Shown piece by piece: positions 24,155 through 58,020 of a stretch of DNA of 64,000 nt. This stretch comes from Hericium rajendrae. Taxonomy: Eukaryota; Basidiomycota; Agaricomycetes; Russulales; Hericiaceae. Position 1 is the first letter of the stretch; every line of letters starts with the position of its first letter. The notes below the pieces were generated by a model that worked only from the letters and a program-made list of their open reading frames with translations, had not been told where the DNA came from and did not search any database. Where the stretch lies: NCBI GenBank assembly GCA_033439255.1, contig CM065879.1, positions 4,656,501-4,720,500 on the forward strand. Reading direction: 5' to 3'. The translations under genes were made by a program, and so were the position numbers.

Positions 24155-24396
24155 AACGGCCCGGGACGCCGGCAACACACCTGGCGTCCCATTCCAGCTG
24201 CTTTCTCCCAGTCCGCGCCTTCTTATGCAGCACGTCGCACCCCGCGGGGCGGCCCAATCCCAAGCACATCGCGCACTCTGCCCCAGCGATCGCACGCGCG
24301 AGACTCTTGGATACCACGGTACGACGCAGCCCCGACCCGTCACCATCGCGCCAGCAGCGTCACCTCTGACTCTGACAGGCTCGCACGCACGCCGTC

Positions 24397-34436: not shown

Positions 34437-34445
34437 GGTCGAGGT
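34437..34445 (+). repeat. Target-site duplication, left (GGTCGAGGT)
   Basis: GGTCGAGGT directly precedes the left terminal inverted repeat and recurs directly after the right one at 58012-58020. Because the target is a short GGTCGA tandem repeat, the true duplication could be 9 bp or only 3 bp (GGT). Confidence 0.7.
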
Positions 34446-34677
34446 CAGGCTCCTGCCCATCCGTCGCTTCAGGGTAAGGGCCTAAATCCGAGGGCGGGGG
34501 GAGGGATAATAGGGGGACGCGACGTGTATATTGGTGTGCGAACATGTAGCTACATTAGGACTTATATTCAAACTCAATGAAACTCAGCCCTTCCTCCTTG
34601 AACTTAAATCGCCCTTACCCTTCAGCGACGGCTGGAGGAAAACATTTACAAACATTCAGCCACCCGAGTCCACGGAC
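34446..34677 (+). repeat. Left terminal inverted repeat (~232 bp)
   Basis: Matches the reverse complement of 57773-58011 at about nine of ten bases, with a few small indels. Within it CCGTCGCTTCAGGGTAAGGGC (outer part, near 34460) and GCCCTTACCCTTCAGCGACGG (inner part, near 34610) are inverted relative to each other, so a single end can fold into a stem of about 20 bp. Confidence 0.88.
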
Positions 34678-35988
34678 GACCTCTGCTGATGTAACCACCA
34701 ATATACGCGCTCTCGTGACTGACGCGACGTGCTGTTGATTGTTTAATAGCGCGACGTGTATTAATGATAGTCTGGCAGGGTAACATTCTGTCCCATCTTT
34801 GTTCTACCCATGCCCGCGTTTACCCCATCGGCATGGCCGCGCCTGCTAATGTCCCTTCCATTGACGAAATCCGTCAGAAGACTCATGATTCTCTCGGCAT
34901 TACTCCCTGTCTCTGGCAATGCGAAATTACTCAGGCCATCTTGCGCGGAGACAAGGACATCATTTCCGTTGCTGGTACAGGGTCAGGCAAGACACTGACA
35001 TTTTGGATGCCCCTGTTGTTCCGTCCACAGGGTATTCAGATTGTCGTGACACCTCTCAATATCTTAGGCAAGCAACAAGTAAATCAGCTTGCAAAGGCCG
35101 GAATGAAAGCTATTCCCCTTAGTGGTGAGACTGCAACGCACGAGAAGTACAAGGTACACTTATCAGTGATTGATGGTGAGAAGAGAATTCTGAATTTGAA
35201 AATCACAGGCAATCGAAGACGGCAGGTATCGCGCCGTTGTCATAAGCCCCGAGGAGATGCTGAAGAAGGATGGCGGTTTTATGAAAATGCTTGCTAATGA
35301 CATTTGGGCATCCCAGATCATTAGCATTATCTGGGATGAAGGACATTGCATTGGACCCTCTAGCTGGGGTAGCTTTAGGCCAGCTTACAAGGATGCAGCC
35401 CGTCTCCGACACTTACTGCCGCGTCATGTACCATACTACATCACCTCAGCCACTCTAGATGACCGCGCAGTCAGTGAAATCGTGTCGACGCTACAGCTTC
35501 AACGAGAGCGCCTACTTCAGTTTCGATATTCGAACGACCGGCCCAACATACATCTGACTGTTCGGAAGATGCTCCATAGCATGCGGAGCTATCGCGACCT
35601 CGCTTTCCTCATCCCAGAGAGCTGGAAGGAGGGAGACTCGATCCCAAAGTTCCTGGTATTCTTCGACAGCATCGGGGACTCCGTCGCCGCAGCCCGCGCG
35701 CTACGACGATTCCTTCCGGCCCACCTGCGCTGCCATATCAAATGGTTCAACTCCGAGATGTCGTCACAATTTCGTGACAAATATCAGGGGACATACAAGG
35801 AGGGTGGTGTATGGGGGCTATATTGCACAGATTCGTTCGGTATGGTAAGTAACCAGTTTGCATAAGCAATCGCGGCCAATGGTACTCACCTAGCTGTGTA
35901 CAGGGTGTAGACCTGCCGGACATTGAGCTGGTGGTTCAATGGCGCGCGACTTGCGACATGAGAACACTTTGGCAGCGCTTCGGTCGTG

Positions 35989-35992
35989 CCGC
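35989..35992 (+). repeat. 4-bp target duplication of the LTR element (CCGC), left
   Basis: CCGC abuts the 5' LTR and is repeated at 52552-52555 directly after the 3' LTR. Four to six bp is normal for Ty3/Gypsy elements. Confidence 0.85.
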
Positions 35993-36228
35993 TGTCGCGC
36001 CCAAAACCCATTTTGAGCATTGACATGATTGATTTAGCAAACTCAACAGCCCCAGAGATTGGCAAAGATCGAAAGACCGATCAGCAAGTACCAAGAAATT
36101 GATGAGAGCCTAGACTCAGGGCTTCGAATTGATTACCGTTAAGCGCGTAGCTAGACGCTCAAGATCTGGCAACGCTCGATCATTAAGCGAAAGCCATATT
36201 AGAGTAGCATGCGAACACGAGACTTTGT

Positions 36229-37044
36229 TTGCTGGCAACAATGTTCAACTGCCTCAATCCTCGCCGCACATCCTCGGACTCATACCTATTTTCCCTGGTG
36301 CTCAATCAGACCTTCGACCAGTCACCAGCAGAAGTCCGAGTCACCCGCGAATTCACGTGCTCACCGAATCGGGGCAGCTCAGGCGATCAGCTGCCTCAGT
36401 ATTTTCCACGCACGTCTATTGCTAGCAATGCATCGATCTCTGCAGTGTGTTGCAGGTCAGGCAGCGCAGCCCCTCCAGATTATGATTCCCTATCTCTATG
36501 CCCCACATCCCCCATCGAGATTGTAAATGATGACGATGACGACGACATCCAGTATCCTTCCCTATATCGTCATCTCTCAGTACGAGCACACCAATCCTCC
36601 CTCCTGCATCCATGGTTCGTCACTAAGCGCCCCACGCCCTTCATTCGTCAAGGCCAGCTTGTCGAGCTTGCGCTCATACATGGCGAGACCACTATCATTA
36701 CTCGTGCCCGCATCGCCTCCATCCTCTACATTGGTGCAACATGGACCCACTTCTGCGCTGAGCACGAAGATGCAGTAGGCAGTGAGGTCACAGAGCTCAA
36801 GCTGATTGTACCTCGTATATGGAGCCAACTCCCTCGCACTCTCCCCATTCGCGACTTCTTCCGCCGTCGACCTCGGGTTGACACACACGAGCCCTTCGAC
36901 CCAGCCAGTGACAGGCAGGTTGCTGCTCACTCGTTCATCGTTCCCATCCACCTGGAGGATGATGAGGAGAGGGTGGTTGAGGCATACAAGCGGAGGACGT
37001 GCAAAGTGGCAATTTTGACAGGACGTAGCAGGTATGTCCTGTGA
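36229..37044 (+). CDS. U3-embedded ORF of the LTR (271 codons), 5' copy
   Basis: Begins MLATMFNCLNPRRT. It has an Asp run, then a well-formed globular-looking half (LVELALIHGETTIITRARI, ELKLIVPRIWSQLPRT, FIVPIHLEDDEERVVEAY). No family is recognised. The same frame is open and identical in the 3' LTR. Whether it is expressed is unknown. It lies upstream of the TATA box, so it would need its own or an upstream promoter. Confidence 0.4.
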   Translation: MLATMFNCLNPRRTSSDSYLFSLVLNQTFDQSPAEVRVTREFTCSPNRGSSGDQLPQYFPRTSIASNASISAVCCRSGSAAPPDYDSLSLCPTSPIEIVNDDDDDDIQYPSLYRHLSVRAHQSSLLHPWFVTKRPTPFIRQGQLVELALIHGETTIITRARIASILYIGATWTHFCAEHEDAVGSEVTELKLIVPRIWSQLPRTLPIRDFFRRRPRVDTHEPFDPASDRQVAAHSFIVPIHLEDDEERVVEAYKRRTCKVAILTGRSRYVL

Positions 37045-37855
37045 TCTTAGTCGTTGGACGCGGACTCTTTCGTCTTGTTAAGCCCACATTCATTCATACT
37101 CTCGTGCTATGCCCTTGCTGTTTCTTTATGCCATCAATCTTTGCTATTGCTCAATGATTATCTGTCAACTATTCCATCTCATTTATCTTCGCACGCACCC
37201 CACCCGTCGCTTCTGCATTATTTGCCACCATTTTCCCCGCATATCGCCGTAAACTTCATCATTGTTCACCTCGTTACGGTAGATTATTGCATCTCGCGTG
37301 GCTTGTACAGCTACGAGCTTTGGGCCATTTACTACTTGGAAGGCTACAAAAGATGCGCATACATTACGATTCCCGCAGAGCTTAGGATAGACTATTTGAT
37401 GATTGGGAAAATGCACTCATTCCTGAAAAATATTCAGCCCAGCTCTGAAAGACTCCGGAAATTCAGAGAATGATCCGGAAACTTCTATCCACTTAGTAAG
37501 GCATTTACCAAGGCATTAATAAGCCTGCAATGACTCAGCACCTGCTCTCTGTCATCCCAATTACTCAGTCCAGCCAAATATAAGTGCACAGCCTCATGGA
37601 GCTTACCAATCATTACCAATCACATGCTCGGCTTACTCAGACACCCATTACCAAGCAGAATTTGGCTTATTAAGGCAGAAAGGTAGTATTACTAAGGAAG
37701 AAAACAGATTACAGAGCATTTTCTGCCTTACGAAGCAGCTTATTAATCGTAGAAAAATGTAGTCCGGAAATTAAGTAGCTACAAATTTAGTAGTTAGTTC
37801 CCACAGTAGCATAGACCATGTACATATTTGGAATCTCTTTCCCACGGTCTCAAGG

Positions 37856-37866
37856 GTATATAAAGG
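37856..37866 (+). promoter_or_regulatory. TATA box of the 5' LTR
   Basis: GTATATAAAGG within the LTR, repeated at 51835-51845. It marks the likely U3/R boundary a little downstream. Confidence 0.6.
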
Positions 37867-38631
37867 CCCTGAAATCGATCGGAACAGGAGGCCACATTAA
37901 CCACCCCAATCCACCCCAGTTCTCAGCTTCTATTATTCCAGTCCATTCCCTACCGTGGGAATATTTTCGCTTTCAGTCCCCTAGCGTGGGAATATCCTTG
38001 TTTGATTACCTAAGCCAGTTCTTGGAGCAACGGCTCAGACTGCAGTAACTCAGTGTTTCATCTCACAGCCCCAATCATCCTCATCAGCCTATCTCGTTAG
38101 TCAGTAACAGGTAAAATCCCACAGGGGATAAGTTTATCTTTGTTCATCCATTGTTGCATCTAGTCTAGTCTTGCCAGACAGCTAGAAGCCCACTAAAAGT
38201 TTAGTCAAAATTCTTAGATCATATCAATTCTCAGTTCTAGCCAGCCTCGAGTCTCGACAACAGTTACCCAACATCCAGATCATCAAGTCAGCCAAGGTTG
38301 AAGCCACTATAGGCATTCCCCTAAAATTCGGAGTATATTTCTGTTTGTTTGTGTTTGTTTGCTCAAGTCTTGCACAGCTTAGAATAAACATAACCACCTC
38401 CTAAACTCAGTCAAACAGTCCACCGTCAGCAAGAAAAGGGTATAGTATCCTACATTTTACCTCTCCCGAACAACTAGGTACATCTGGGAAAGTAGGAAAA
38501 CCTGATCGTATCTAGGATAGTGTGTTACTGAGGTATACCAACATTACTTCAGAACCCATCATCGTCACGACATCTGGAGCCCACCGCGAGGGAGAGTCGA
38601 TTTAAGATTGTAGGACTATCTTGTCTCCCTT

Positions 38632-40650
38632 TTGCTTCAGGTTGGACTCAACCCATTGAGTCTCCAAATCAAGTTTATGACAGGAGATCTATTCCCTTCA
38701 GGATCCATTGCATCAGATCCGCCAGAGTCTTCTCAAGAAGTGGAAGTAGGATCTGCTTCTCCAATCACCTCAAGTCACCATTCCCCATCCCCTCAGTTAA
38801 ATCCTGTTCACATTCTTAATCCCAATCCCATTTCCCAATCCCATATTCCTATACATCAGCGACATACTACCTCAGCTACACTGCACAGCATGGCTCCTTC
38901 AGTTTTAACCATGCCAATCCCCAACACCAAACATGCTCCTCTCAAGTTTAAAGGGCAGTATGATATGGTGGAATATTTCATTAAAACCTATGAAGCTCTG
39001 TGCCGCCAGAATAATGTGGTCACAGATGCTGAAAAATGTGATCTCATAACCCAGTACTGTTCAAGAAAGGTCGCCAATCTAATCGAGGCTTTGCCCAGTT
39101 ATCTCAGGCCTGACTTCCAACAACTCAAGACTGATCTGCTTACATACTTTGATGCGGATCGCCGAATCAAGAGATATGGTCGCAAGGACCTCCGAAAATA
39201 TGTTCATGATACCAAGTACAAGAGAATGGGTGATCTTCATGCTTGGCGCAAATACACTAGAGGCTTCGTCAGAATTGCAGGATGGCTCAAAGCAGCTGGA
39301 AAGCTCAGCAACTATGATGAAGCTGGCTATTTCTGGCTAGGCATAGGCCCAGGACTCAGAGACAAAATTGAAGATAGGCTTATTGCTAGCTACCCCAATC
39401 ATGACCAAGCTGATCCCTTCCCCATTGATGAAGTCCAGAAAGTAGTTGAGAAAATTCTGCAACGTAACAAATTCGACATTGACATGGCAGAATCAGACTC
39501 AGACCTAGGAACTGACTGGTCTGGAGATTCAGACAGCTCAGACTCTGACTCAGAATCCTCAGATGATGAGAGGATCAGAAGGAAGAAGAAGCATTCCAAG
39601 AAATCTGGCTCCAGATCTGCAGAGAAGGAGAGGAGAGTCAAGTTTGCTAAGGATGAAGAACCAGAAATAAGCAAGTTCAAGAAGTCTTCAAGCCCGAGAT
39701 CAAGTTCACCTGCTCGAAAGAAAATTACCAATGAACAAGATAAAGTTGAAGACCTTATTCGCGAACTCAATACTATGCGCGCGGACGACCCGGGATACGG
39801 ATTAGTTTATTACAAGGCTTGTAAACTAGATGGCGCCGTTAGAGAAGTGGTTAGCCCACCCGCTCTATGCTCGAATCAAACCGTTATGACTATGCATGAA
39901 GTTCTTCAGTGTGATCCACCTCCGCATGTCTCGAGTGTCCCGCGCAGCATACCTCCAATAAATCGTACTAGTACAATGTCAGCCTCGCGACCACCTCCAA
40001 TTCCAACAATACGAGAACCTGCTTACCGACACGAAGACATGACTTGCTTTGGCTGCGGCCTGAAGGGCCATGGGATGGGACTCTGCCCCGACTTACGGAG
40101 ACTAGTCGATTCTGGTGAGCTCCGGCGTGACCCACAAGGACGTTACACGTACCCAAATGGTCAGCGTATTGCTCGATTTCCTGATGAGACTCTCCTTGTA
40201 GCAATTCAGCGCGACAGGACCGCTGCCCAACGCGCTGCGGCTATGTCAAATTTTGTGACTGTGGTAGGCCTAGATGCAGAATCAGAATCCGAAAGTGACG
40301 ACCATGATAACTCACGGTATTATTTCCCCAATGAATATGCCGAGACGGACTCGGAGTACGACGTATATCCCGCGGCAAAGAATGTCGAAGAACCTAAGAG
40401 ACAAACACGTCAGTCTGCAGGAACACGAGCCAAAAAAGAAATATTCGATGGTGTCCACGTACCCTCTAGCCCAAAACAGCGCGCACGAGTCCGCGCATCG
40501 GGAACCGATCCCCGAGGCTCACAAGTCATACCTACGGCGGATGAAGCAATGGCGGTCGATCCTCCAATGGGATCACGACCGATGAATGCACCAAGGATTC
40601 CTGGAGAACGACTTGGTCATCCTGCCAAGAAGCTCGGACGAAGCTCATAG
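38632..40650 (+). CDS. LTR element gag-type region
   Basis: Part of the LTR element. It holds a retrotransposon gag-type helical domain (LKFKGQYDMVEYF ... LRDKIEDRLIASYP), a Ser/Asp/Glu-rich linker, and a CX2CX4HX4C zinc knuckle (CFGCGLKGHGMGLC). This is the usual order in basidiomycete Ty3/Gypsy elements. Confidence 0.88.
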   Translation: MLQVGLNPLSLQIKFMTGDLFPSGSIASDPPESSQEVEVGSASPITSSHHSPSPQLNPVHILNPNPISQSHIPIHQRHTTSATLHSMAPSVLTMPIPNTKHAPLKFKGQYDMVEYFIKTYEALCRQNNVVTDAEKCDLITQYCSRKVANLIEALPSYLRPDFQQLKTDLLTYFDADRRIKRYGRKDLRKYVHDTKYKRMGDLHAWRKYTRGFVRIAGWLKAAGKLSNYDEAGYFWLGIGPGLRDKIEDRLIASYPNHDQADPFPIDEVQKVVEKILQRNKFDIDMAESDSDLGTDWSGDSDSSDSDSESSDDERIRRKKKHSKKSGSRSAEKERRVKFAKDEEPEISKFKKSSSPRSSSPARKKITNEQDKVEDLIRELNTMRADDPGYGLVYYKACKLDGAVREVVSPPALCSNQTVMTMHEVLQCDPPPHVSSVPRSIPPINRTSTMSASRPPPIPTIREPAYRHEDMTCFGCGLKGHGMGLCPDLRRLVDSGELRRDPQGRYTYPNGQRIARFPDETLLVAIQRDRTAAQRAAAMSNFVTVVGLDAESESESDDHDNSRYYFPNEYAETDSEYDVYPAAKNVEEPKRQTRQSAGTRAKKEIFDGVHVPSSPKQRARVRASGTDPRGSQVIPTADEAMAVDPPMGSRPMNAPRIPGERLGHPAKKLGRSS

Positions 40651-41244
40651 AACGAGACGGTCGAAACTCGCCACGTACCTCGAAATGCCGATGACCCACC
40701 CTCCATGCGCCCGATCGACACAAGAAAGCCAGCATATGATTCATCTCGGGATGAATACATTCGCGATGATGTTGAAATGGAGGTAGACAAGGAGAACTCG
40801 ACAAAGAACAAGTCAGTAAAGCGATCGGATACGTCACCTTCAAAGAACGACGTACCGGTGCCCGAGATCAAACGGCAAGTCCGCCGTTCGGCCATATCCT
40901 CCATCGTGGAACCCTCCAAGGTCCTCGCACGAGTCTTAGAGTCTCCTATCCAGCTGAAAGTCGGTGAGGTCATCGGGATTTCAAAGGAAATATCTCAGAT
41001 ACTTACCGATAGCCTGAAGTTCAAATCTCCTGAGTCTAATCCCATCGCAGCCACGACCGCGGTAGCCATGGTCGGCGGAGGAGAAGGAGACGGGCATGAG
41101 AGCCTGTGGCTCAAGAACTTTCCGAAGGTCGGAAGACCACTGCAAAGGGAGTCCCAGTCAAGCGCGCCGACACGCGTAACGTTTAAACAAGCAAGACATA
41201 GCTCACCTGGTAGGCACGACTTGCAGCATCAGTAATTAGGCAGA

Positions 41245-41532
41245 TGCCCTGAGCGCACTGACAGTTACCATATATGGTAACTTTCAGTGCAGTCAGGACG
41301 TGTCAGTGCGATTCAGTCTCCAGGCTTCATCTATGCCCAAAGCATGGTCAGGGTGAGAATTTCATGCCCAAATTCTCATCTCCAGGGCTGTCAGGCTGGC
41401 AACTCTGAGTGCATAAGTTTAGCCATAATCATAGACATCAACTTTATTTGATGCTACCGGCTGTACGAGTGTTTTAACAATATATTGAGCTTAAGTATTA
41501 TAGCTGCTAAAGCTGTCAGGGCCGTCAGGGCA
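41245..41532 (-). mobile_element. MITE-like element nested in the LTR element
   Basis: About 288 bp with imperfect terminal inverted repeats: TGCCCTGAGCGCACTGACAG on the left and, read inverted, TGCCCTGACGGCCCTGACAG on the right (17 of 20 match). It has an internal palindrome around ACCATATATGGT and no coding capacity. The target duplication is unclear. It is related to 33849-34075 in the opposite orientation. Confidence 0.7.
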
Positions 41533-44500
41533 TCAGGGTTCGACCGAATTGCTGATGAGGGCGACTTAATACGAATCCGCATGCGATGCAGAGACAAACC
41601 TATTACAGCTATTGTAGACACCAGCTCACAATTAAATGTAGTGAACCGGCAGGTATGGCGGGAATCCATAGACATCCCGTGCGACATGGCAAAGACTGTG
41701 CAGATGAAAGACGCGAACGGTCAGAGTAAGGAGTTACACGGACTAGTTCAGAACGTACCTTTGTCAATTGGGAGCCTCAACACAGAAGCCGACCTCTTCT
41801 GCGGGGACCATGTTCCATTCCCCATGCTCCTCGGACGACCCTGGCAAAGGCAGAACTTTGTTACGATAGACGAGCGGTCGGAAGGAACTTACCTCGTATT
41901 CAAAGACCCCTGGGATGTCTCTAAGTCACGTTTCGAGGTCATGGTGGATTACCACGTACCCTCGAGCGCAGAAGCTCAATACCTGCAAGCACGACCCACA
42001 TCTCAAGTATATTCCGTGATGATCGAGGATAACGACGTACCTGTGTTATTGAATACTTTGCAGATTACAGGCACCGACGCGCCTGATCAAGACGAGTTAG
42101 ATAAGATCCCGGAGGCAGATCGGGGCAAGGCACCCAGATCCTCGGATCAGATCCAATCTCTGATCGACCCCACCGGAGGTATCCCCGAGGCCGGCGCCGA
42201 TCTCATTCTACTAGATTCCTCTGTCTTGTCCTATCCTCCTCCCGCCACGTATTCTCTCACCAATTTTCAAGGCGCACTTGACTTATTATGCCTGAAGGGT
42301 TATCCGGTGAGTACTAGGCTCACTTTGGATGACATAACCGAATTTTTAGATATAAATATGAGCCAAGACGGCCCTGCTGAGTCGGCTTGGCCACTCCCGC
42401 TTCCACCTCCCGAGTACGTCCCTCAGCCATCGCCCATTTCCATTGATAAATTTGCCTTCAACTTCATTCCCGTTCGCGAGCGTCGCACTCAGCTCCATCC
42501 TGTTCAGTGGACCGGCGCGTATCGCGGAGGCTCTCCATTCGAACTCATCTCGCGTGCTTGGGCCGATCGAGGCTACTTGCGCGACACATCTCAAGTCTCT
42601 CAGGCTCTGCTCAACTCGAGCGAGGCCATTCTTCTTCACGAGGATCGCGTAGACGGACCGACTGGTAAGCCCTATGCTGATTTAATTATGCTTGAAGCAA
42701 CCTTAGTCCTCGCTCAGCCAAATCAAGACGTTCACATCGAGTGTGGTACCGTGCAGATTAGTTTCCACCCGCGGGACGCCGGAGTGTACGTACCACCTCA
42801 CATGTCACCTGAGCCGCTTCATCGAGCCTTAATTCCAGTTTTTGAACATCATCCGTCCGCTGAAGACCTTTCTGATATGGTGCGTTGCATGCACGGCAGG
42901 ATCTATCCTCCTGCAGACGCGATCATACAACAGCACACCAACGAACTCATGCCCACACAGCCCAACACCCCCGAGCCCGAGGCAGGATCCTCCCAGACCC
43001 TCTCAAGACCCACTCTTCCCCGCCAGCCTTCTTTTATCGACGTCATGGCTCACTATGGAGCCACGATCACGTCCAACGAACTTCGCGAAACCATTGGACC
43101 TTTTGCGCCACTTGTCAGCGGCATCCAGGAAGACAATCGACACTTCCACATGTCCGAGCTCCCACCCGCCGTCCTGCGCCAGCACGTCGACCATATGATC
43201 ACCAAGCGTAAGCTCAGGGACGTCGCGGATAACGTTGCTATCGAGAATTTCAAGCGAATGTGCCCTGATGAAGACCTAGAACCTGAGCTCGTCCAAGAGT
43301 TCTTGCATCGCCGTGATCCACTGGAATTTGAGGAGACCAAAGAGCCTGAGGCCGATGAAGACCAGGAGATGGAGGAAGGATCCTCCCAGCCGATGAATCC
43401 CGGAGAATCGCAAGCCCAGGAGCCCGCTGGAGATGTATTGGATGAGATTGCAGAGGAGGGTCTGATGGAGGGTCTGAGGGAGCAGGAGGCCGACGTAGTG
43501 GAGGTAGACCTGACGGGTATGTCCCCAGGCCTCACCAACCACTTCATTTCCACTTATCGACAAAATCTCGTCTGGCTCGACAAAGGTACACGCCCTGTCC
43601 TTCGTTTCTTGAAGTCGCACCCTGCCTTCAGAGGTCGTTTCCCAAACGCACCATCCATGTCCTCGCGGGAATCACCTTCGACATCGTCTGACTCTGAGCC
43701 CACGCACGCTGAGCCCGAAGACATTCAATCCACATCAGTGCTATTCGCCGCTGATGTTAAGCTATCGACGGACTCGCCGCACGAATCAACATTCTCCCTC
43801 CATGAAGGTGATGCCCGGGAAACATTCTATGCTCACACCATTGTCGACCCCACTCGTTATAAAACGTGCATCGACGATTCCGACTCTGATGCTTCGGAGA
43901 CAAGTAGTGGTGCTTCAAGCATCGGAACCACTCTTGTTCACGTCTCTGGACGATCGACGCCAGCTAGCATGCCGTCTCTCGTCGCTATGAGCGAGTCCCC
44001 AGAACCCCTCGACGATTATCTTCATGATTCAGTACCTCCGTGCGAAGTCCCGATTATTGTGCACGAGCCCCGTGGTCCTCATGGCCCAGGCATTATCATT
44101 GACGACAAGCCCCTTCATCCTGACCAGCCCGCATACCGATGCGAAGGCCCCTGGATCATCAATAACAAGACCGAGGCAGTGGTCTCGACAGATGAAGAAC
44201 CTCCTCCGTACGGCGCGAAGATCCTCCCATTCCTCAGCAACGTTTTTGACGAGCTTCGGCGGAACTCACCGGACTCCCTTCATATCTTATTCCCTGACTT
44301 ATGCGTCAACCACGCCAGTGAACCTATCCTTCCGATTCCGCGAACTGAATCCTTTAATCCACCTACAAAGCCCCAGGACACGCAGGCCTTCAAGGAGAGG
44401 ATGCACGTTCAAATGATCGATGGCAACGCAATTGTCCAGCAGCCCGCACTATTCAACTCCATGTTTTGTATGTACTCCTTCTGGTACCAGCGTTATCATA

Positions 44501-44919
44501 CCTTCGTCGAGAATCTACTCGACAACCTGGACGAGATTATGAAGGAACCCCCACTCACTCTGGACCTTCTCAAGCGCATTCGTGACCCGGCAATGGAACA
44601 ACTTCGCCAGCACCTTGAGTGTGCATGCCAAAAACCTCTGCGACCATCGTTCTTCCATGTCGAGGAAGTTCGATTCCTCCAAGCACTTGCCGCACTGTAT
44701 AACCTCTGGGGTCGTGCCGCCTTTGCTGAAGGTATCGACGGTATCCTCCACCTCCAGTACGGCGATGACTTCGTCATCTCGCAGCTTCGTCAGTCAGGAA
44801 TCCTTCTCCCCAAGTACCCGTACAGATCATACTTCGAGCGCCTTCGCAATGCCGAGCAACGTCTTGTTGCCCGATTCAATCAGCAAATGGGTCTGGCGCG
44901 TGGAGAGGCCTATCACTAG
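41485..44919 (+). CDS. LTR element protease-type region with long unique extension
   Basis: Part of the LTR element. Near its start it has a retropepsin-like fold (AIVDTSSQLNVVN ... MLLGRPWQ). The following ~900 residues are Pro/Ser/Glu-rich with a few globular blocks (FELISRAWADRGYLRD, NELRETIGPFAPLV, FLSNVFDELRRNSPD) and match nothing I recognise. Confidence 0.75.
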   Translation: MSLSIIAAKAVRAVRASGFDRIADEGDLIRIRMRCRDKPITAIVDTSSQLNVVNRQVWRESIDIPCDMAKTVQMKDANGQSKELHGLVQNVPLSIGSLNTEADLFCGDHVPFPMLLGRPWQRQNFVTIDERSEGTYLVFKDPWDVSKSRFEVMVDYHVPSSAEAQYLQARPTSQVYSVMIEDNDVPVLLNTLQITGTDAPDQDELDKIPEADRGKAPRSSDQIQSLIDPTGGIPEAGADLILLDSSVLSYPPPATYSLTNFQGALDLLCLKGYPVSTRLTLDDITEFLDINMSQDGPAESAWPLPLPPPEYVPQPSPISIDKFAFNFIPVRERRTQLHPVQWTGAYRGGSPFELISRAWADRGYLRDTSQVSQALLNSSEAILLHEDRVDGPTGKPYADLIMLEATLVLAQPNQDVHIECGTVQISFHPRDAGVYVPPHMSPEPLHRALIPVFEHHPSAEDLSDMVRCMHGRIYPPADAIIQQHTNELMPTQPNTPEPEAGSSQTLSRPTLPRQPSFIDVMAHYGATITSNELRETIGPFAPLVSGIQEDNRHFHMSELPPAVLRQHVDHMITKRKLRDVADNVAIENFKRMCPDEDLEPELVQEFLHRRDPLEFEETKEPEADEDQEMEEGSSQPMNPGESQAQEPAGDVLDEIAEEGLMEGLREQEADVVEVDLTGMSPGLTNHFISTYRQNLVWLDKGTRPVLRFLKSHPAFRGRFPNAPSMSSRESPSTSSDSEPTHAEPEDIQSTSVLFAADVKLSTDSPHESTFSLHEGDARETFYAHTIVDPTRYKTCIDDSDSDASETSSGASSIGTTLVHVSGRSTPASMPSLVAMSESPEPLDDYLHDSVPPCEVPIIVHEPRGPHGPGIIIDDKPLHPDQPAYRCEGPWIINNKTEAVVSTDEEPPPYGAKILPFLSNVFDELRRNSPDSLHILFPDLCVNHASEPILPIPRTESFNPPTKPQDTQAFKERMHVQMIDGNAIVQQPALFNSMFCMYSFWYQRYHTFVENLLDNLDEIMKEPPLTLDLLKRIRDPAMEQLRQHLECACQKPLRPSFFHVEEVRFLQALAALYNLWGRAAFAEGIDGILHLQYGDDFVISQLRQSGILLPKYPYRSYFERLRNAEQRLVARFNQQMGLARGEAYH

Positions 44920-46634
44920 GGTGAGCCTCCATTCGTGTTTGGAAGTTCCAGGCATTTTCTTATGAAGTTCCCTGCGCCCGCAATCCAGCCTCACCCCGCG
45001 ACTCCAACAACACGCGGATCTCAAACTAGAAAATCCAGAAAAAATCGTAAAATTCCCAAATCAACTCTAGCGTCGTCTTCACGACCCATTCTTTGATTAC
45101 GCCGAGCGCTTTCTGGTTCGATGGTCTAGTTTTTTTTTTACAGGTCCTCTTCTATGCCACGCCTTCCTCCTCAAGCTTCAAGTCCCGGTTTTTCCCTCTC
45201 TTGTTTTGTTTAGGTGTTCTCTTTCCTCTGTCTGTCCAATGTACGTCAGCTCTTCACATCCGCCATCATTCCCCACCCCCTTCTTTTCTTGCTGGCCATC
45301 ATTCATTCAGGCGCGATGACAAGTTCCAGTCTGGTCTCGCACCCGACGAAGACGACTTCAACCCCAACTCGGAAATCAATTACCCCAGGGCAGGTACCCT
45401 CTCGACATCTCGCTTCCTCCATCAGCCACACATCGATTCATTGCTCGGACCCAGCCTCAAGTCCGAGCGCTCGATTAGAAGCTGTCGAGCTGTCTGATCG
45501 AAGGCACCTCAAGGCAGTCGCGTGTCCAATCACGACGACTGTCTATATAAATTCTCGTCCCCATCGTTCAACTCTTTCAAGACCAGTATCGGCAGCATTG
45601 TACGATTAGGGGTGAGTCATCAAGTCTCCCTCGATAGGCTCAGTACTCACCACTCTTCGAAGCGATGACCTCCCATTCTTTTGACCCATAGGTGGTCCGT
45701 TTCGTGCCTCATCTTTTCTTTCTCCATCTATGCCTCCCCTCTCAGTCCTATTCCGACGTCAATTCGTTCTTGAGCAATTATCCTAAATACAAGTGCTTGC
45801 GATGATCCTTACAAGATGCAATTTAACTCAAGTGAGCATGCCTCGTTCCGTGATCAGGACGGACTATGCGACTCACCCCTTGCTAGAAAAAGAATGAAAT
45901 TCCTAAAAACCTGCGCACCTGGCGCACTCCATAGACGTTCCCCTCCCTCGTACTGTTGCAGTTGCTGCATCGCAAGCAACGAGGCTCGTCGACAGACCGC
46001 GCCTCATGATCCCGCGTACAAGCCCCGAGGCTGGCATTGTTCGACTTGTACGTCTCTCGTTTGTCATGCATACGCTGGTGTTTGCTTATCTGCTGCTTGC
46101 GTCCCTTCCACTCGACACCATCGCCTTGCACGAATCAGGCAAATTGTTCATCCAGTTCCCCACTCCTTTTCCCGGTGTCATCGAATCTTTGGCCTCGACA
46201 ACGCGTGCGCTCAAATTCCCCGCGCAGGCTTGGGACGTTTTTTTTCGGTGCTGATTCTACATTCGAGTTGTATCTACGACTGTTCCTTAGTCTTAATGCA
46301 TTTTGTTTGTGACCGAAATGTGTTCCCGTCCGACGACGGACTCCTTCTAAGTTGAATCCCCAGGACAGCCTTTCTGAGAATTTTGCCCTTTTTGAAGATA
46401 TCGTGCCTTGCAAATACCTTCAATAAATCACACTATCAGTTGTGTTGACATATTCACTAAGCCCTTACATTTTGCTCTCAGAGCTTGCCTCCTCAAGGCC
46501 TTAAAAATTTCTGGCATCACCGGAAATCGAACCACAGACCTCACACAAATCAGACGCCCGACGCTAAGCGCCTCGGCTCTCATTTTAAAAGGCTCTCGAC
46601 TTAAGTCAATTCTAGAGTTCTGACTTTTGACTCT
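44920..46634. other. Internal LTR-element segment without recognised protein
   Basis: About 1.7 kb between the protease-type and pol regions. Pyrimidine-rich stretches and short frames occur; one short frame has a hydrophobic run but nothing points to an envelope gene. Confidence 0.5.
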
Positions 46635-49600
46635 ATGGATCTCAAGTCTTATAATATCAATTCTGTGATCTTTCCTCTATCTAAGAAAATCAAGAAATAC
46701 ATGAAAATCTTCACCGCATATAAGAGAGTGGACAAGAAAGTCAAACCCGTCGCAGGCACATTTCCAGAAGATGCGCGAGTTGCACGAAGATTTCCAGAAG
46801 ACCCGTTGGCTTCTTTACCCACTTTGACCCCATTTCCCCCTGAATTTATTCCTTCTGAGAAAATGACCCTGGACTACATAAAGCAGCTTGAAATAAATAA
46901 AGATGGATTCCTATGGCCTGAAGAAGAAAAACTATTTCAGCATATCATGGTCCTAAATCGTGAAAGTTTAGCCTTTGCTGAAATTGAACGTGGAACCCTC
47001 AAGGAATCCTACTTCATCCCATATATTATCCCAACAGTTCCACATGCCCCTTGGGTGTGTAGGAATATACCCATCCCTCCAGGTATAAAAGACAAAGTTA
47101 TTGAACTCCTTAAAGATAAAATCACTGCAGGTGTATATGAGCCAAGTCAGTCTGCATACTGCTCAAGCTGGTTCTGCGTGTTGAAGAAAAATGGAAAACT
47201 TCGAATTGTTCATGACCTCCAGCCCCTTAATAAAGTTACAATCCGTGATGCTGGACTTCCACCAATTGTTGATGATTTCGTTGAACCCTTCGCTGGACGC
47301 TCGTGCAGTACGGTCTTTGATTTATTTTGGGGATTCGATGCCAGAAAAGTACATCCAGAAAGTCGAGACCTTACAGCTTTTAGAACACCTTTAGGATTGC
47401 TAAGAATCACATCCATGCCCATGGGATTTACAAATTCTCCAGCAGAATTTCAGAATTGCATGACCTTTATCCTTCAGCCTGAAATTCCTGAAAAAGCCAA
47501 CATCTTTATTGATGATTTAGGAATTCGTGGCCCTCCGACCACATATCCTGATTCCAAAGGAAATCCTAAAGTACTCAAGGAAAATCCAGGAATCAGGAGA
47601 TTTATTTGGGAACATGCTCAGGATGTTCACCGCATTATGCATCGTATCAAGCATGCAGGTGGAACCTTTGCTCCCAATAAAGCCCAAATTAGTAGACCAG
47701 ATGTTCTCATTGTCGGTCAGAAATGTACACCTCTAGGGAGAGTGCCTGAGGACAAGAAAGTTGAAAAGATTCTTGCCTGGCCACCTTTAAAAACCTCCAC
47801 AGAAGTTAGAGGATTCTTAGGACTGTGTGGAACTATGCGCATTTGGATCCCAAATTACTCCAAGATAGCCAGACCTCTCACAGAACTAATTCGTCGTGAA
47901 GAAGCCTTTCTATGGGATCAGAGAAGACAAGAAGCCTTTGACACCCTGAAAAAACTAGTCACCTCAGCTCCTGCCCTACGTCCAATTGATTATCACTCAG
48001 GCCAGCCGGTCATACTTTCAGTCGACTCAAGTTATATTGCAGTAGGATTTATTTTATCCCAGCTTGACAATGAAGGACGTCGACACCCTGCTCGTTATGG
48101 ATCTCTACCCATGTCAGAAGTCGAGTCAAGATATTCTCAGCCCAAGTTAGAGTTATTTGGACTTTACCGAGCCCTCCGTCACTACAGTTTATACATCGTT
48201 GGACTCACCAATTTCTTTGTTGAAGTTGATGCTAAATACATTAAAGGAATGTTGAACTCTCCAGACATCCAGCCAAATGCAGCTGTCAATAGATGGATTC
48301 AAGGCATTCTCATGTTTGATTTCACACTCGTTCATGTCCCTGCAGATAAGCACAAAGGCCCAGATGCCTTGTCACGTCGACGCCTTGCAGATGATGAAGA
48401 AGCTGATTTTGATAATGATGAATGGCTCGACAACATTGCCCTTTATCTAGGATCAAAACCAGAAGATTTATCTCTAGACAACAATATGTCCAGTTCATAT
48501 TCACTTTCAAATCTACCCTCAGTTTTGACCTCCACCATTACCCAGCAGGATGAAACCCTGCTTCATGTTTTCAAGTTTTTTAGGACACTTGAGTATCCTT
48601 CCACTTCTATGTCAATTCAGCAACAGAAGAGATTCCTAAAGAAAGTATCCCAGTTCTTTGTCAAAGGAGGAATCTTATTCAAACGGAATTCAACTCGACC
48701 CCCTCTTAAAGTTATATTCAAAGCATCTCAACGGAATTCAATTATGATTGATGCACATGAGAATCTTGGTCACCGTGGAGAAATAGCAGTATTTGAGACC
48801 ATAAGGACAAGATTCTTCTGGCCATACATGCGTGCTGATATCAAACACCATATTGCATCATGCCATGAATGTCAAATCAGAAGCACCAAAAGAATTGAAC
48901 TTCCTCTCATAATCTCCACCCCTTCCACAATTTGGACTAGAGTCTATATTGATGTCATGCATATGCCAAAAGCAGCAGGATTTACTCACATAGTCGCAGC
49001 ACGAGATGACCTATCACGAGCCTCAGAAGGACGGGCTTTGACAAGGGTTACCTCAAAAGCTCTTTCTAATTTCTTTTGGGAACAACTCTACTGCAGATAT
49101 GGAGCCATAGGTCAAGTTACAACTGACAATGGACCTGAAGTCAGAGCAGCCTTTAGTGAGCTAATGGACAGGTTAGGACTTCCACATATCCCAATATCCC
49201 CATATAATTCCAAAGCAAATGGAGTAGTCGAACGAGGTCATTATGTTATCCGAGAAGCCATAGTCAAGTCATGCAATCACAAGATGAGCAAGTGGCCAGA
49301 GAAGGTAGCAGAAGCATTCTTTGCTGACAAAGTTACCACAAGTCAGGTCACAGGATTTTCCCCCTATTACCTCCTGCATGGAATAGAACCTGTCCTCCCA
49401 TTTGATTTAACAGAAGCCACTTTCATGGTTGAAGGATTTAAGTCAGGAATGTCTCCCGAAGATCTGCTCGTCTTACGTATGAGGCAATTAGGCAAGAGAT
49501 CACAAGATTTGAAACATGCTGCTTTCAAGCTCAGTCAATATCGCATGAAGTCAAAGGAAGAATTTGAGAAAAAGTTCTTCGCCAAGCTAGTCACCAAAGA

Positions 49601-49907
49601 TTTCAAGCCTGGAGACTTAGTCCTGCTTAGGAATACTCAGGTTGAGAAGAGTATGAATCGCAAAGCCAAGCCACAATACCTTGGACCTTATGAAATTGAT
49701 CGTCGCACCCAAGGAGGATCATATGTCCTTAAAGAGTTAAGTGGTGTAGTCATGAGAGATGCCGTCACTGCTTTCAGACTAGTCCCTTATATTGCACGCG
49801 ATCAGAAGAGACTCAAGAAGTTGATGTCTACAAACTATGATGCAGAAGATTCTGAGAATGATTCTGAGAAAATGGATGATGCAGATATATTAGACGCCGA
49901 AGAATAA
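46635..49907 (+). CDS. LTR element pol-type region (RT, RNase H, integrase)
   Basis: Part of the LTR element. Reverse transcriptase blocks (VLKKNGKLRIVHDLQPLN, MPMGFTNSPAEFQ, FIDDLG) are followed by RNase H (VILSVDSSYIAVGF, FVEVDAKYIKG), an HHCC zinc-binding segment (HENLGHRGEI...CHECQ), an integrase core (YIDVMHMP, TTDNGPEVR, VVERGHYVIREAI) and a GPY/F-type C-terminal module (YLGPYEIDRR). No chromodomain is seen after it. The order defines Ty3/Gypsy. Confidence 0.93.
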   Translation: MDLKSYNINSVIFPLSKKIKKYMKIFTAYKRVDKKVKPVAGTFPEDARVARRFPEDPLASLPTLTPFPPEFIPSEKMTLDYIKQLEINKDGFLWPEEEKLFQHIMVLNRESLAFAEIERGTLKESYFIPYIIPTVPHAPWVCRNIPIPPGIKDKVIELLKDKITAGVYEPSQSAYCSSWFCVLKKNGKLRIVHDLQPLNKVTIRDAGLPPIVDDFVEPFAGRSCSTVFDLFWGFDARKVHPESRDLTAFRTPLGLLRITSMPMGFTNSPAEFQNCMTFILQPEIPEKANIFIDDLGIRGPPTTYPDSKGNPKVLKENPGIRRFIWEHAQDVHRIMHRIKHAGGTFAPNKAQISRPDVLIVGQKCTPLGRVPEDKKVEKILAWPPLKTSTEVRGFLGLCGTMRIWIPNYSKIARPLTELIRREEAFLWDQRRQEAFDTLKKLVTSAPALRPIDYHSGQPVILSVDSSYIAVGFILSQLDNEGRRHPARYGSLPMSEVESRYSQPKLELFGLYRALRHYSLYIVGLTNFFVEVDAKYIKGMLNSPDIQPNAAVNRWIQGILMFDFTLVHVPADKHKGPDALSRRRLADDEEADFDNDEWLDNIALYLGSKPEDLSLDNNMSSSYSLSNLPSVLTSTITQQDETLLHVFKFFRTLEYPSTSMSIQQQKRFLKKVSQFFVKGGILFKRNSTRPPLKVIFKASQRNSIMIDAHENLGHRGEIAVFETIRTRFFWPYMRADIKHHIASCHECQIRSTKRIELPLIISTPSTIWTRVYIDVMHMPKAAGFTHIVAARDDLSRASEGRALTRVTSKALSNFFWEQLYCRYGAIGQVTTDNGPEVRAAFSELMDRLGLPHIPISPYNSKANGVVERGHYVIREAIVKSCNHKMSKWPEKVAEAFFADKVTTSQVTGFSPYYLLHGIEPVLPFDLTEATFMVEGFKSGMSPEDLLVLRMRQLGKRSQDLKHAAFKLSQYRMKSKEEFEKKFFAKLVTKDFKPGDLVLLRNTQVEKSMNRKAKPQYLGPYEIDRRTQGGSYVLKELSGVVMRDAVTAFRLVPYIARDQKRLKKLMSTNYDAEDSENDSEKMDDADILDAEE

Positions 49908-49971
49908 GCCAATCAGTTGCACCCTTATTGTATGGCAACCGAGGACGGTTGATTTTCAAGTTCCCCGTGGA

Positions 49972-52551
49972 TGTCGCACCCAAAACCCGTTTTGAGCATT
50001 GACATGATTGATTTAGCAAACTCAACAGCCCCAGAGATTGGCAAAGATCGAAAGACCGATCAGCAAGTACCAAGAAATTGATGAGAGCCTAGACTCAGGG
50101 CTTCGAATTGATTACCGTTAAGCGCGTAGCTAGACGCTCAAGATCTGGCAACGCTCGATCATTAAGCGAAAGCCATATTAGAGTAGCATGCGAACACGAG
50201 ACTTTGTTTGCTGGCAACAATGTTCAACTGCCTCAATCCTCGCCGCACATCCTCGGACTCATACCTATTTTCCCTGGTGCTCAATCAGACCTTCGACCAG
50301 TCACCAGCAGAAGTCCGAGTCACCCGCGAATTTACGTGCTCACCGAATCGGGGCAGCTCAGGTGATCAGCTGCCTCAGTATTTTCCACGCACGTCTATTG
50401 CTAGCAATGCATCGATCTCTGCAGTGTGTTGCAGGTCAGGCAGCGCAGCCCCTCCAGATTATGATTCCCTATCTCTATGCCCCACATCCCCCATCGAGAT
50501 TGTAAATGATGACGATGACGACGACATCCAGTATCCTTCCCTATATCGTCATCTCTCAGTACGAGCACACCAATCCTCCCTCCTGCATCCATGGTTCGTC
50601 ACTAAGCGCCCCACGCCCTTCATTCGTCAAGGCCAGCTTGTCGAGCTTGCGCTCATACATGGCGAGACCACTATCATTACTCGTGCCCGCATCGCCTCCA
50701 TCCTCTACATTGGTGCAACATGGACCCACTTCTGCGCTGAGCACGAAGATGCAGTAGGCAGTGAGGTCACAGAGCTCAAGCTGATTGTACCTCGTATATG
50801 GAGCCAACTCCCTCGCACTCTCCCCATTCGCGACTTCTTCCGCCGTCGACCTCGGGTTGACACACACGAGCCCTTCGACCCAGCCAGTGACAGGCAGGTT
50901 GCTGCTCACTCGTTCATCGTTCCCATCCACCTGGAGGATGATGAGGAGAGGGTGGTTGAGGCATACAAGCGGAGGACGTGCAAAGTGGCAATTTTGACAG
51001 GACGTAGCAGGTATGTCCTGTGATCTTAGTCGTTGGACGCGGACTCTTTCGTCTTGTTAAGCCCACATTCATTCATACTCTCGTGCTATGCCCTTGCTGT
51101 TTCTTTATGCCATCAATCTTTGCTATTGCTCAATGATTATCTGTCAACTATTCCATCTCATTTATCTTCGCACGCACCCCACCCGTCGCTTCTGCATTAT
51201 TTGCCACCATTTTCCCCGCATATCGCCGTAAACTTCATCATTGTTCACCTCGTTACGGTAGATTATTGCATCTCGCGTGGCTTGTACAGCTACGAGCTTT
51301 GGGCCATTTACTACTTGGAAGGCTACAAAAGATGCGCATACATTACGATTCCCGCAGAGCTTAGGATAGACTATTTGATGATTGGGAAAATGCACTCATT
51401 CCTGAAAAATATTCAGCCCAGCTCTGAAAGACTCCGGAAATTCAGAGAATGATCCGGAAACTTCTATCCACTTAGTAAGGCATTTACCAAGGCATTAATA
51501 AGCCTGCAATGACTCAGCACCTGCTCTCTGTCATCCCAATTACTCAGTCCAGCCAAATATAAGTGCACAGCCTCATGGAGCTTACCAATCATTACCAATC
51601 ACATGCTCGGCTTACTCAGACACCCATTACCAAGCAGAATTTGGCTTATTAAGGCAGAAAGGTAGTATTACTAAGGAAGAAAACAGATTACAGAGCATTT
51701 TCTGCCTTACGAAGCAGCTTATTAATCGTAGAAAAATGTAGTCCGGAAATTAAGTAGCTACAAATTTAGTAGTTAGTTCCCACAGTAGCATAGACCATGT
51801 ACATATTTGGAATCTCTTTCCCACGGTCTCAAGGGTATATAAAGGCCCTGAAATCGATCGGAACAGGAGGCCACATTAACCACCCCAATCCACCCCAGTT
51901 CTCAGCTTCTATTATTCCAGTCCATTCCCTACCGTGGGAATATTTTCGCTTTCAGTCCCCTAGCGTGGGAATATCCTTGTTTGATTACCTAAGCCAGTTC
52001 TTGGAGCAACGGCTCAGACTGCAGTAACTCAGTGTTTCATCTCACAGCCCCAATCATCCTCATCAGCCTATCTCGTTAGTCAGTAACAGGTAAAATCCCA
52101 CAGGGGATAAGTTTATCTTTGTTCATCCATTGTTGCATCTAGTCTAGTCTTGCCAGACAGCTAGAAGCCCACTAAAAGTTTAGTCAAAATTCTTAGATCA
52201 TATCAATTCTCAGTTCTAGCCAGCCTCGAGTCTCGACAACAGTTACCCAACATCCAGATCATCAAGTCAGCCAAGGTTGAAGCCACTATAGGCATTCCCC
52301 TAAAATTCGGAGTATATTTCTGTTTGTTTGTGTTTGTTTGCTCAAGTCTTGCACAGCTTAGAATAAACATAACCACCTCCTAAACTCAGTCAAACAGTCC
52401 ACCGTCAGCAAGAAAAGGGTATAGTATCCTACATTTTACCTCTCCCGAACAACTAGGTACATCTGGGAAAGTAGGAAAACCTGATCGTATCTAGGATAGT
52501 GTGTTACTGAGGTATACCAACATTACTTTGGAACCCATCATCGTCACGACA
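49972..52551 (+). repeat. 3' LTR (2580 bp)
   Basis: Same length as the 5' LTR, with about six differences by eye, all transitions. It is preceded by ACCGAGGACGG, a possible polypurine-type priming site, and followed by the CCGC duplication and the rest of the helicase gene. Confidence 0.95.
50208..51023 (+). CDS. U3-embedded ORF of the LTR (271 codons), 3' copy
   Basis: Predicted product is identical to that of 36229-37044. Two identical copies are expected from the recent insertion and do not by themselves prove selection. Confidence 0.4.
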   Translation: MLATMFNCLNPRRTSSDSYLFSLVLNQTFDQSPAEVRVTREFTCSPNRGSSGDQLPQYFPRTSIASNASISAVCCRSGSAAPPDYDSLSLCPTSPIEIVNDDDDDDIQYPSLYRHLSVRAHQSSLLHPWFVTKRPTPFIRQGQLVELALIHGETTIITRARIASILYIGATWTHFCAEHEDAVGSEVTELKLIVPRIWSQLPRTLPIRDFFRRRPRVDTHEPFDPASDRQVAAHSFIVPIHLEDDEERVVEAYKRRTCKVAILTGRSRYVL

Positions 52552-54868: not shown

Positions 54869-57623
54869 TCAGAAAGGCATATCAGCACTGAGATCCTCTA
54901 TAGTCAATTCCGAGTCTAACCAGTACTCGTCATCTATGTCCATTCTCTCGTCGCTTCCGCCCAGTGCTACCTTGAATTCTGCCGTCAACCCGTCATCTAT
55001 CATATCAGGGATTTCATGCGCGGTTTTGCGTCCAGCCATGTAATCATTGGTTCTATTCTCTTTCATATATTTCGTCAGTTCTTGGAATGATCGAGTCATG
55101 TCTTTTGCAGCATGTGCAAATGAGAGACCTGCAAGCTTGAAGTTCTTCTCTATGTTGGCATGGCAGTTTCGGTACACCAGAATGAGGGGTGACTCGGTAA
55201 TGATTCTCGCTTTGGACCGATTGGAGCCTGAGCCTCCATTATGGTCCTGGTGCCCGCGATGAGCCCTCCATTTCTGCTTATGCTGCATAAATGAATGCTT
55301 ACCTTCGTAAACAGGTTATTGAGCTCAACAACCCAATCTACTCCTCGAAACTCGTGTGCGCGACCAGTGGGGTTGACGAGCATGTTGTATCGCACCGCTT
55401 TTCTAAATGTGCTTGGTCAGTATATTTGTTCTCTCTTTCCGTCACTCAATAAACTTACCGAAGCCCTTCAGGATACCGATAATGTACGTCTGTCAAGAAA
55501 CGCGTCATCTGCGATGCGTACTTATGCTTTCCTGTCGCCTTGAATATATTGATCCAGGCTGGAAAGACTGTTTCGACTCAGCCGACATCGCCCGCGTTCA
55601 TAGCGTACGTGAGTTCCTCGTAGAGAAGAAAATATTCATGAAGCAGCAGCGTATTTTCCAGTTGCTTGTCACGTTTGGTATCACGTTCAAGGCGCACTGC
55701 AAAAACATCGGTTTCATCTCCAGCGACAAAGTTATCGCTGACGGCAAGTGCGATTTCGCGCAGCTGCTCCAGTGTGGGTTCTAGATCCGCAAACTCCTCA
55801 AGAGTTGTTATCTTCCTGTTGCGTCGCCCTGCATCTACGCGCCACACGTCCAATCGTAAGCTGATTCCTACATGCCGGATGACTTCATGCATCTGGCGGA
55901 ATTTTGGCTTTGATCCTATCTTCCCGGTCTCAGTTGCACGGATCACGGTCACGAAAGCCATGAGACTATTCACGTCTTTTCGAGCTGCTGTAGATGCTAT
56001 AAAGACCCGCCAAATTGCATCCGCAGCAGCCATCTTGAGGTGGAATAGGCCTAGGACAAAAACCACAAACTGAAATCTTCGCCACGGTGTGTCTTCATCC
56101 GCACGACGATCCATGACTGCTTGTACTCTTTCGCAGGTGCTGAGGTCTCCGTGAACCAGGACGACATGCTCGGACATATCTACAAGATCATTTGTATACT
56201 CTTGGTCTGCGTCATTGTCATCATCATTAGGGTCGCCAACGCCACCTTGGTGCAAGAGGTTCTGGATGGCCTCGAGATTTCCAGAGACCATGGATTCATT
56301 GATGTCCATGGCTCGTGCCAGGACATGATGTAGTTTGGTAACAGGTATTTGTTCCACTGTCTCGGGGTATCCAATTTGATCTCGAAAGCAATGGAAGTAT
56401 GGTGGCCCGTGATGTACGAGGTCATGTAGGAACTGCCAGGCGTTGAACCGCATGCGCCTTGTATGTCCGCTGGCGTCCGGTATCTCTGGGTGTAGTTGCC
56501 GAAGATGAGATGTTGATTGTAGGCTAACGAAATCTGGGTAAGTCTGTTTCGTGGCATTATCATTGTAAGGTGAGCTCTCCCATAGCTCTTTTGAACAACG
56601 GAGGTCCTCTGTGGTAACTCCATGGTCTAGCTGCATGAGGTCACCCGATGTGAGGTGAATGAGGGTACTGCCGCCGTCATCGATTGTTGGTGTCGACACG
56701 TTCAATTGAACGTCAAAGTTGTCATACGCGTATGCCGCCAAGAGTGTCCGCCCAAGTTCTTCCATTCCCTTTGCCGTTTCGACTGACAATGACTTCACCG
56801 CATCATTGATCGCATCGACAGAAATCGACGTCCCCATCCTCGCCAGCATCTTGATCACCTTCTCCGGTGTGCCACAGGAATGGAGAAAGACTCCAACCAC
56901 ACTCTGTAAGGCATTGCATTGCTGATTATTTGATTGCATCATAACATTAATCACCGTAGTTGTTTTCTACAGGGTCTTCAGTCTTGGTCGCAACAAGGAT
57001 ACGGCTCACGATACGTACAATGTTGATCAACTCTTGTCGCCACTGAATACGTCTTGTGTTCGACATTGCCACCTTCGCTGCTTTGCGACGCTCATCGTTT
57101 TCCAGGAACACATCAACATCTTCCTGTGTCGACCACAGTCGGTTGTCTTCAATGTCTTCCTCGGGTGCTGTTGTTCTATTAAGTATGCTTGCTCATCATA
57201 GTATGCAATAATCTTACCGACGTAGTTCATGTCCTCCGCAGAACCCATCACGAAGCCCACAAGATCCCAAAGCTCTGGGGCAATCTTTCTCATCCGCCCT
57301 GACATCTCTTCCAGCTGGAAGTCTTTGAGTTTCTCGGGGGTTGCATGGACGGCCGAGAAATGCCATCCGTTGTCTTTGTTGGTGAGTTCTTTGACCGCAG
57401 CTCTCATTTTCGCCTTTGTGGTGTTTTGTATATTCTTCTCCCAGGTCGACCTCATTATCGGATGCTTTAGGAAGCAATCAAAGATTGTGTCAACTTTCTC
57501 GATGACCTGGTGGAGAGCAAGGCTTGTTTGAAGATCGGGTGACTGTAACAGAAGAATCAAAGAGTCGGCGAAGTTTATCTGGGAGGCCTCCGCATATTCA
57601 AGTACACTGGACATGGGGAACAT
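54869..57623 (-). pseudogene. DUF6589 protein, candidate DDE-type transposase (one in-frame stop)
   Basis: Begins at or before MFPMSSVLEY (57623). Exons join in phase: ...MNYV to APEEDIEDNRLWST, then ...QELINI to KTTTVINVMMQSNNQQCN, and later LR to KAVRYNM and NLFTK to DHNGGSGSN. Family blocks: IGIFLHS-type VVGVFLHSCGTPEKVI, AYAYDNFDVQL (possible first catalytic Asp), VVLVHGDLSTCERVQ (possible second Asp), FVLGLFHLKMAAAD, KYASQMTRFLTDVHYRYPEGL, VDWVVELNNL and the C-terminal ILVYRNCHANIEKNF. A TGA at 55578-55580 interrupts GDVG-VETVFPAW where the family has Arg (CGA to TGA). DUF6589 is multicopy in agaricomycetes. The transposase role is my inference from the TIR context and the RNase H-like pattern. 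Confidence 0.8.
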
Positions 57624-57772
57624 GGTGGTTTATCTCTCATTGTATTTCGTATCGTACCACAATGTCTTGTCGTGAGGACGAGGGATCTGCAGTACTTACC
57701 AAAATGTCCTCAATGAGGAAGTGAGCATTCTCAATATGGAAGTCATCGCGGACGATTACATGAGCAAGACCT

Positions 57773-58011
57773 GTCCATGGACAAAGGTGGCTGAATGTTT
57801 GTAGATGTTTTCCTCCAGCCGTCGCTGAAGGGTAAGGGCGAGTTAAGTTTCGGAGTTGGGGCTGAGTTCGGGAAATGTCATTGAGTTTGAATCTTAGTCC
57901 TAATGTAGCTACATGTTCGCACACCAATATACATGTCGTGTCTCCCCCTACTATCCCCCCCGCCCTCGGATTCAGGCCCTTACCCTGAAGCGACGGATGG
58001 GCAGGAGCCTG
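57773..58011 (-). repeat. Right terminal inverted repeat (~239 bp)
   Basis: Reverse complement of 34446-34677. It ends ...GGCAGGAGCCTG, followed by GGTCGAGGT. It carries the same internal inverted pair around AGGGTAAGGGC and GCCCTTACCCT. Confidence 0.88.
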
Positions 58012-58020
58012 GGTCGAGGT
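58012..58020 (+). repeat. Target-site duplication, right (GGTCGAGGT)
   Basis: Exact match to 34437-34445, directly outside the right terminal inverted repeat. Confidence 0.7.

Follow-up and report, generated by a model that had tools for sequence, protein, structure and literature searches.

Helicase-bearing DNA transposons of the Academ lineage make up the AcademH class, which was reportedly described by Kojima in 2020 (Mobile DNA 11:15). In the accessible text of PMC10045372, AcademH duplications are given as 9 or 10 bp and those of AcademX as 3 or 4 bp, which is tied there to a helicase versus a nuclease. According to the accessible text of PMC10799480, AcademH is present at low copy number in Basidiomycota, Ascomycota, and Mucoromycota. 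KolobokH likewise encodes a RecQ helicase, which sits downstream of the transposase domain, and is reported only from fungi in the available portion of PMC9587614. A transposon table for Agaricus bisporus has no Academ entry in the portion of PMC7473861 that was available. Here, we describe an element located in a 64,000-nucleotide stretch of Hericium rajendrae, hereafter the window (assembly GCA_033439255.1, contig CM065879.1, positions 4,656,501 to 4,720,500, forward strand). This element pairs a RecQ-type helicase gene with a gene of DUF6589 (PF20231), which is a family of unknown function in Pfam. With a probability of about 80%, it is a cut-and-paste-type DNA transposon copy of the helicase-bearing Academ lineage (AcademH), where it was placed by descriptions in later papers.

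The features of the element are listed below, for which the exon limits of the helicase and DUF6589 genes were set by eye.

34437..34445, no strand: left copy of the 9-bp target-site duplication GGTCGAGGT, from flank reading
34446..34694, + strand: left terminal inverted repeat, from the end alignment and matches elsewhere in the genome
34833..54798, + strand: RecQ-type helicase gene (PF00270, 7.1e-10; TIGR00614 RecQ family, 2.2e-15), split by a retrotransposon
35993..52551, + strand: nested long terminal repeat (LTR) retrotransposon, foreign to the transposon (LTRs 35993-38572 and 49972-52551; pol domains)
54869..57623, − strand: DUF6589 gene, candidate transposase (PF20231, 9.1e-63 on the main exon; several exons)
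57756..58011, − strand: right terminal inverted repeat, from the end alignment
58012..58020, no strand: right copy of the 9-bp target-site duplication GGTCGAGGT, from flank reading

The sequence CAGGCTCCTGCC begins exactly at 34446 (+) and 58011 (−), the two starts claimed in a preliminary description of this DNA. The inverted repeats of 249 and 256 bases share 224/261 identities (86%, E = 6e-84), which excludes a chance origin of these ends. The common flanking sequence noted earlier was also found, as the 9-bp GGTCGAGGT immediately precedes 34446 and immediately follows 58011. Since the left flank is a GAGGTC-type repeat, this site alone is weak proof of a 9-bp duplication, which is instead established by the other insertions that have it. 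The ends enclose the helicase (+) and DUF6589 (−) genes in convergent orientation as proposed, but not "exactly two" genes, since a 16,559-bp LTR retrotransposon is enclosed as well. Its nesting within the helicase gene explains the 23-kb spacing of the ends; its subtraction leaves 7,007 bases, in line with the proposed size of ~7 kb. The retrotransposon contains reverse transcriptase, RNase H, and integrase domains, and its 2,580-bp LTRs differ by 6 mismatches (99.8% identity), which indicates a recent insertion. Its frames comprise 672 residues, pol, and 1,144 residues (41485-44919), the last with a weak aspartyl-protease match only.

The helicase exons were located from 34833, at ~35205-~35844, at ~35905-35992, and from 52552 onward, while the assignment of the Pro/Ser-rich frame 53785-54798 to this gene is less sure. 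The reading frame breaks off after LWQRFGRAA and resumes with RDPSRTTKALL behind the retrotransposon; it is uninterrupted in a second copy of the element (copy 2, below). Fragments of the window helicase matched TIGR00614 at 2.2e-15 and 1.4e-12, values below the curated whole-protein cut-off of that model. The corresponding exon of copy 2 matched two solved proteins at E<=0.01, the ATP-dependent DNA helicase 1oyw and RecQ 4tmu. In the DUF6589 gene, the main exon frame (55578-56966) terminates at an in-frame stop after AMNAGDVG, beyond which the family sequence resumes in the same frame. The window thus holds a real but broken transposon copy with both genes disrupted. It is dead as an autonomous element because of the split helicase and the stop in DUF6589, although its ends could still be movable by proteins from another copy.

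The 275-base end, used as a query, matched 7 places in the 46.8-Mb genome, two of which are the ends in the window. The paired-end copies predicted to exist elsewhere are represented by copy 2 (C2:1757309-1769294), which is located 2.9 Mb from the window and carries both genes between ends with 271/273 identical positions and the duplication ATATAACAT. Direct repeats of 823 bp (98.8%) border an insert in its DUF6589 gene; the copy measures ~6.8 kb without this insert. A 1,278-bp derivative at C1:3175103-3176380, composed of one arm of 577 bp and one of 567 bp (97.2%), is flanked by the duplication ATCGATATG; a single end fragment is present at C1:529282. Furthermore, a related unit at C8:743104-749706 has the perfect 9-bp duplication CTTATGCGC, and the derivatives C2:4099778-4101187 and C14:1656714-1658116 have CATCGTTCT and GTTTACATG, respectively. 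Inverted ends were detected in 8/12 helicase and DUF6589 units examined: the window element, copy 2, the C8 unit, C9:1261844-1268314, C9 at ~215.9-222.5 kb, L056 on C11, L059 on C6, and L060 on C9, the last with weak ends of 43 bp. A perfect 9-bp duplication was identified at 6 of 14 paired ends, namely those of the window, copy 2, the C1 derivative, the C8 unit, C2:4099778, and C14:1656714. End matches on C3, C4, C10, C13, and C18 were single or incomplete and were left out of the scoring. Two 108-bp miniature elements, L072 (C12:1539346-1539453) and L073 (C7:2619007-2619114), carry 44-bp ends of the C8 family; one of them is a segmental duplicate, since the flanks of the two are reverse complements of each other.

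The two genes are linked throughout the genome. Sixty-eight PF20231 matches were merged into 34 DUF6589 loci, and three helicase queries into 33 helicase loci; the queries were derived from linked units, so that the 33 loci represent the family of such helicases and not all host RecQ genes. A DUF6589 locus was found within 6 kb of 24/33 helicase loci and within 25 kb of 27/33, for which random placement on 15 of the 19 contigs gave means of 0.36 and 1.26 and maxima of 3 and 6, respectively (2,000 trials). Conversely, a helicase lies within 6 kb of 24/34 DUF6589 loci (20 convergent, 4 divergent) and within 25 kb of 29/34; for two of the latter (C8:1858763 and C10:1778273), the only helicase in reach belongs to an adjacent unit. 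Owing to its insert, the window unit is counted in the 25-kb class only. The helicase and DUF6589 distance matrices of 11 units, whose identities fall to 12-30%, correlated with a Mantel r of 0.857, a value reached by none of 20,000 permutations; this test used only the first half of DUF6589 for L057, L058, and L061, and some helicase pieces were short. As judged from these sequences, the two genes have long been inherited together and are an old mobile pair. At C16:255258-268923, two helicase and DUF6589 units lie mutually inverted; each is divergent, and the gap is 2,180 bases in both. This arrangement is probably an inverted duplication.

In this element family, the ends are inverted, several insertions are flanked by 9-bp duplications, the gene pairing is deep, and internally deleted derivatives keep the ends. 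The earlier proposal that a RecQ-like helicase and DUF6589 constitute one mobile unit is borne out by the further copy, the derivatives, the duplications, the linkage, and the co-inheritance.

The DUF6589 protein is most likely a mobile-element protein and very probably the transposase of the window element. Its closest homologue in the best 120 of 695 matches is from Dentipellis (68%), and the named homologues are annotated as hypothetical, uncharacterized, or DUF6589 domain-containing proteins (best 120 of 695 and best 120 of 436). In a Pfam scan of 74 homologues, only DUF6589 itself matched more than 3 members, and no DUF6589 relative was found in the viral contigs searched. In many eukaryotic DDE transposases, two Asp residues are followed by a His. 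Conserved residues of DUF6589, numbered on protein P0042, were counted in the rows that align over each motif (20-23) from 41 genomic loci, several of which cover one gene twice. D261 in YDN is conserved in 20/20 rows, and D449 in D..T/S, H484 in FH, and D636 in GD.GR are each conserved in 23/23. E627 (LLYEEL) is doubtful as the third catalytic acid, as 7/23 rows are without it; D609, chosen by eye, and D636 are candidates as well. In the mechanism that we propose, the DUF6589 protein would be a transposase of the DDE type. It would bind to the long inverted repeats, cleave the element at its CAG/TAG ends, and join these to the target DNA with a stagger of 9 nt, from which host repair would produce the 9-bp duplication. 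The RecQ-type helicase may open the ends or process gapped junctions, a role which is less certain.

Several observations weigh against this reading. No inverted ends were detected within the stretch examined for 4/12 units (L053, L057, L058, and L061). No duplication accompanies 8/14 paired ends (C9:1261844, C9 at ~215.9 kb, L056, L059, L060, L072, L073, and L074), among which L073 is L072 reversed with common flanks and hence not independent; the C9:1261844 unit has none, yet two derivatives bearing its ends have one. Five of 34 DUF6589 loci and 6/33 helicase loci lack a partner in the 25-kb range. The candidate third catalytic acid E627 of DUF6589 is conserved in only 16/23 rows. No transposase family appears among the best 25 of 40 Pfam families (E<=1) that match the 74 DUF6589 proteins, and a profile of these proteins found no relative at E<=1 among solved structures (PDB). 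The empty sites expected from the preliminary description were sought in the genome of the element itself, and none was found. For the window element, the stretch C2:4646969-4647157 is paralogous to the left flank and stops ~105 bases short of the insertion, while the genome holds no second copy of the right flank; the left flank of copy 2 contains a repeat that halts 102 bases before the insertion. When joined flanks of five insertions were used as queries, no site among the best candidates scored matched across the junction beyond a few bases.

Another explanation is that a host helicase and DUF6589 gene pair became trapped between inverted repeats of independent origin, through chance or recombination. 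This would account for the four units without ends and for the annotation of the named homologues as ordinary hypothetical proteins (best 120 of 695). It is very improbable, since two two-ended copies each have a different 9-bp duplication, and end-keeping derivatives occur together with many diverged linked pairs. Kolobok duplications are 4-bp TTAA, which disagrees with the 9 bp at six insertions here, so that KolobokH was rejected as the identity of the window element. It keeps a slight probability on account of its RecQ helicase and its reported occurrence only in fungi (both from the available portion of PMC9587614). KolobokH has the helicase downstream of its transposase domain according to that source; the genes here are convergent.

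The most serious competitor is that DUF6589 proteins, whose genes are annotated as hypothetical in many Agaricomycetes, are the catalytic part of their own, non-Academ transposase superfamily. This would have co-evolved with a shared or acquired RecQ-type helicase since an early stage of mushroom evolution and gained its 9-bp duplications independently. The lack of a sequence link to a described transposase (in PDB and the best 25 of 40 Pfam families) speaks for it, as does the literature searched, in which DUF6589 or PF20231 appeared in no relevant paper and no paper was seen to name the family as a transposase; the one hit for PF20231 was a paper on nanophotonics. No paper linking Academ with XPG and transposase was found in the literature searched. 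We consider this superfamily unlikely, and the group separate from Academ that had been suggested was not upheld: the helicase, the fungal host, and the 9-bp duplication all coincide with AcademH as depicted in the accessible text of PMC10045372 and PMC10799480. Concerning the AcademH assignment, the window element encodes a superfamily 2, RecQ-type helicase, and the class traits of a 9 or 10 bp duplication and of terminal inverted repeats correspond to the perfect 9 bp at 6/14 paired ends and the ends of 8/12 units. As to the DDD/E transposase expected of an Academ element, DUF6589 has invariant Asp, Asp, and His and a further Asp, in an alignment within DUF6589 only.

Three further groups were rejected. 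AcademX does not agree with the 9-bp duplication and helicase found here, and no nuclease domain was detected in the transposon fragments scanned. MULE/Mutator elements have long inverted repeats and duplications of ~9 bp, which resemble those of the window element, but no MULE transposase domain was present in the fragments scanned. Helitrons have Rep/HUH and PIF1 domains and neither duplications nor inverted ends; here, both of the latter occur, and no Rep/HUH or PIF1 domain was seen in the fragments scanned.

Elsewhere in the window, a large inverted repeat has its arms at 5-5919 and 24157-29160, with a block-wise similarity of 78-94% (best 25 of 32 pairs). A frame between them, 18267-19304 (−), gave a weak SWIM zinc finger match and possibly encodes a MULE-type transposase. 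Beside the element, frames 58364-59008 and 62195-62728 on opposite strands have a common WAALQAMGS stretch and are apparent paralogues.

The kind of element is probably already known as AcademH, and the useful part of this analysis is the role proposed for DUF6589. If DUF6589 is a mobile-element protein, annotators could mask such genes and correct the counts of RecQ-like helicases in mushrooms. If the separate superfamily were true, many hypothetical mushroom genes, together with RecQ-like helicases, would be transposon genes. The helicase and DUF6589 pair would also offer a defined two-gene system for asking why a helicase is retained in a transposon of the cut-and-paste type and what sets the duplication length at 9 bp.

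Three loci with weak matches to the window helicase (C1:5260568, C1:642207, and C11:57897) have no DUF6589 within 25 kb, and two of them lie within ~60 kb of a contig end; our guess is that they belong to the subtelomeric class of RecQ helicases and are relatives of the transposon helicase. The subtelomeric fungal RecQ helicases treated in the available portion of PMC7473861 resemble the latter in their common RecQ-type helicase core. KolobokH, as portrayed in the accessible text of PMC9587614, shares with the window element a RecQ helicase, a transposase, and fungal hosts, and differs in gene order, which is convergent here. Its 4-bp TTAA duplication is also shorter than the 9 bp found here. 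AcademH is likewise a helicase-bearing DNA transposon of fungi including Basidiomycota with a duplication of 9 or 10 bp, and no difference from the window element emerged from the accessible text of PMC10045372 and PMC10799480.

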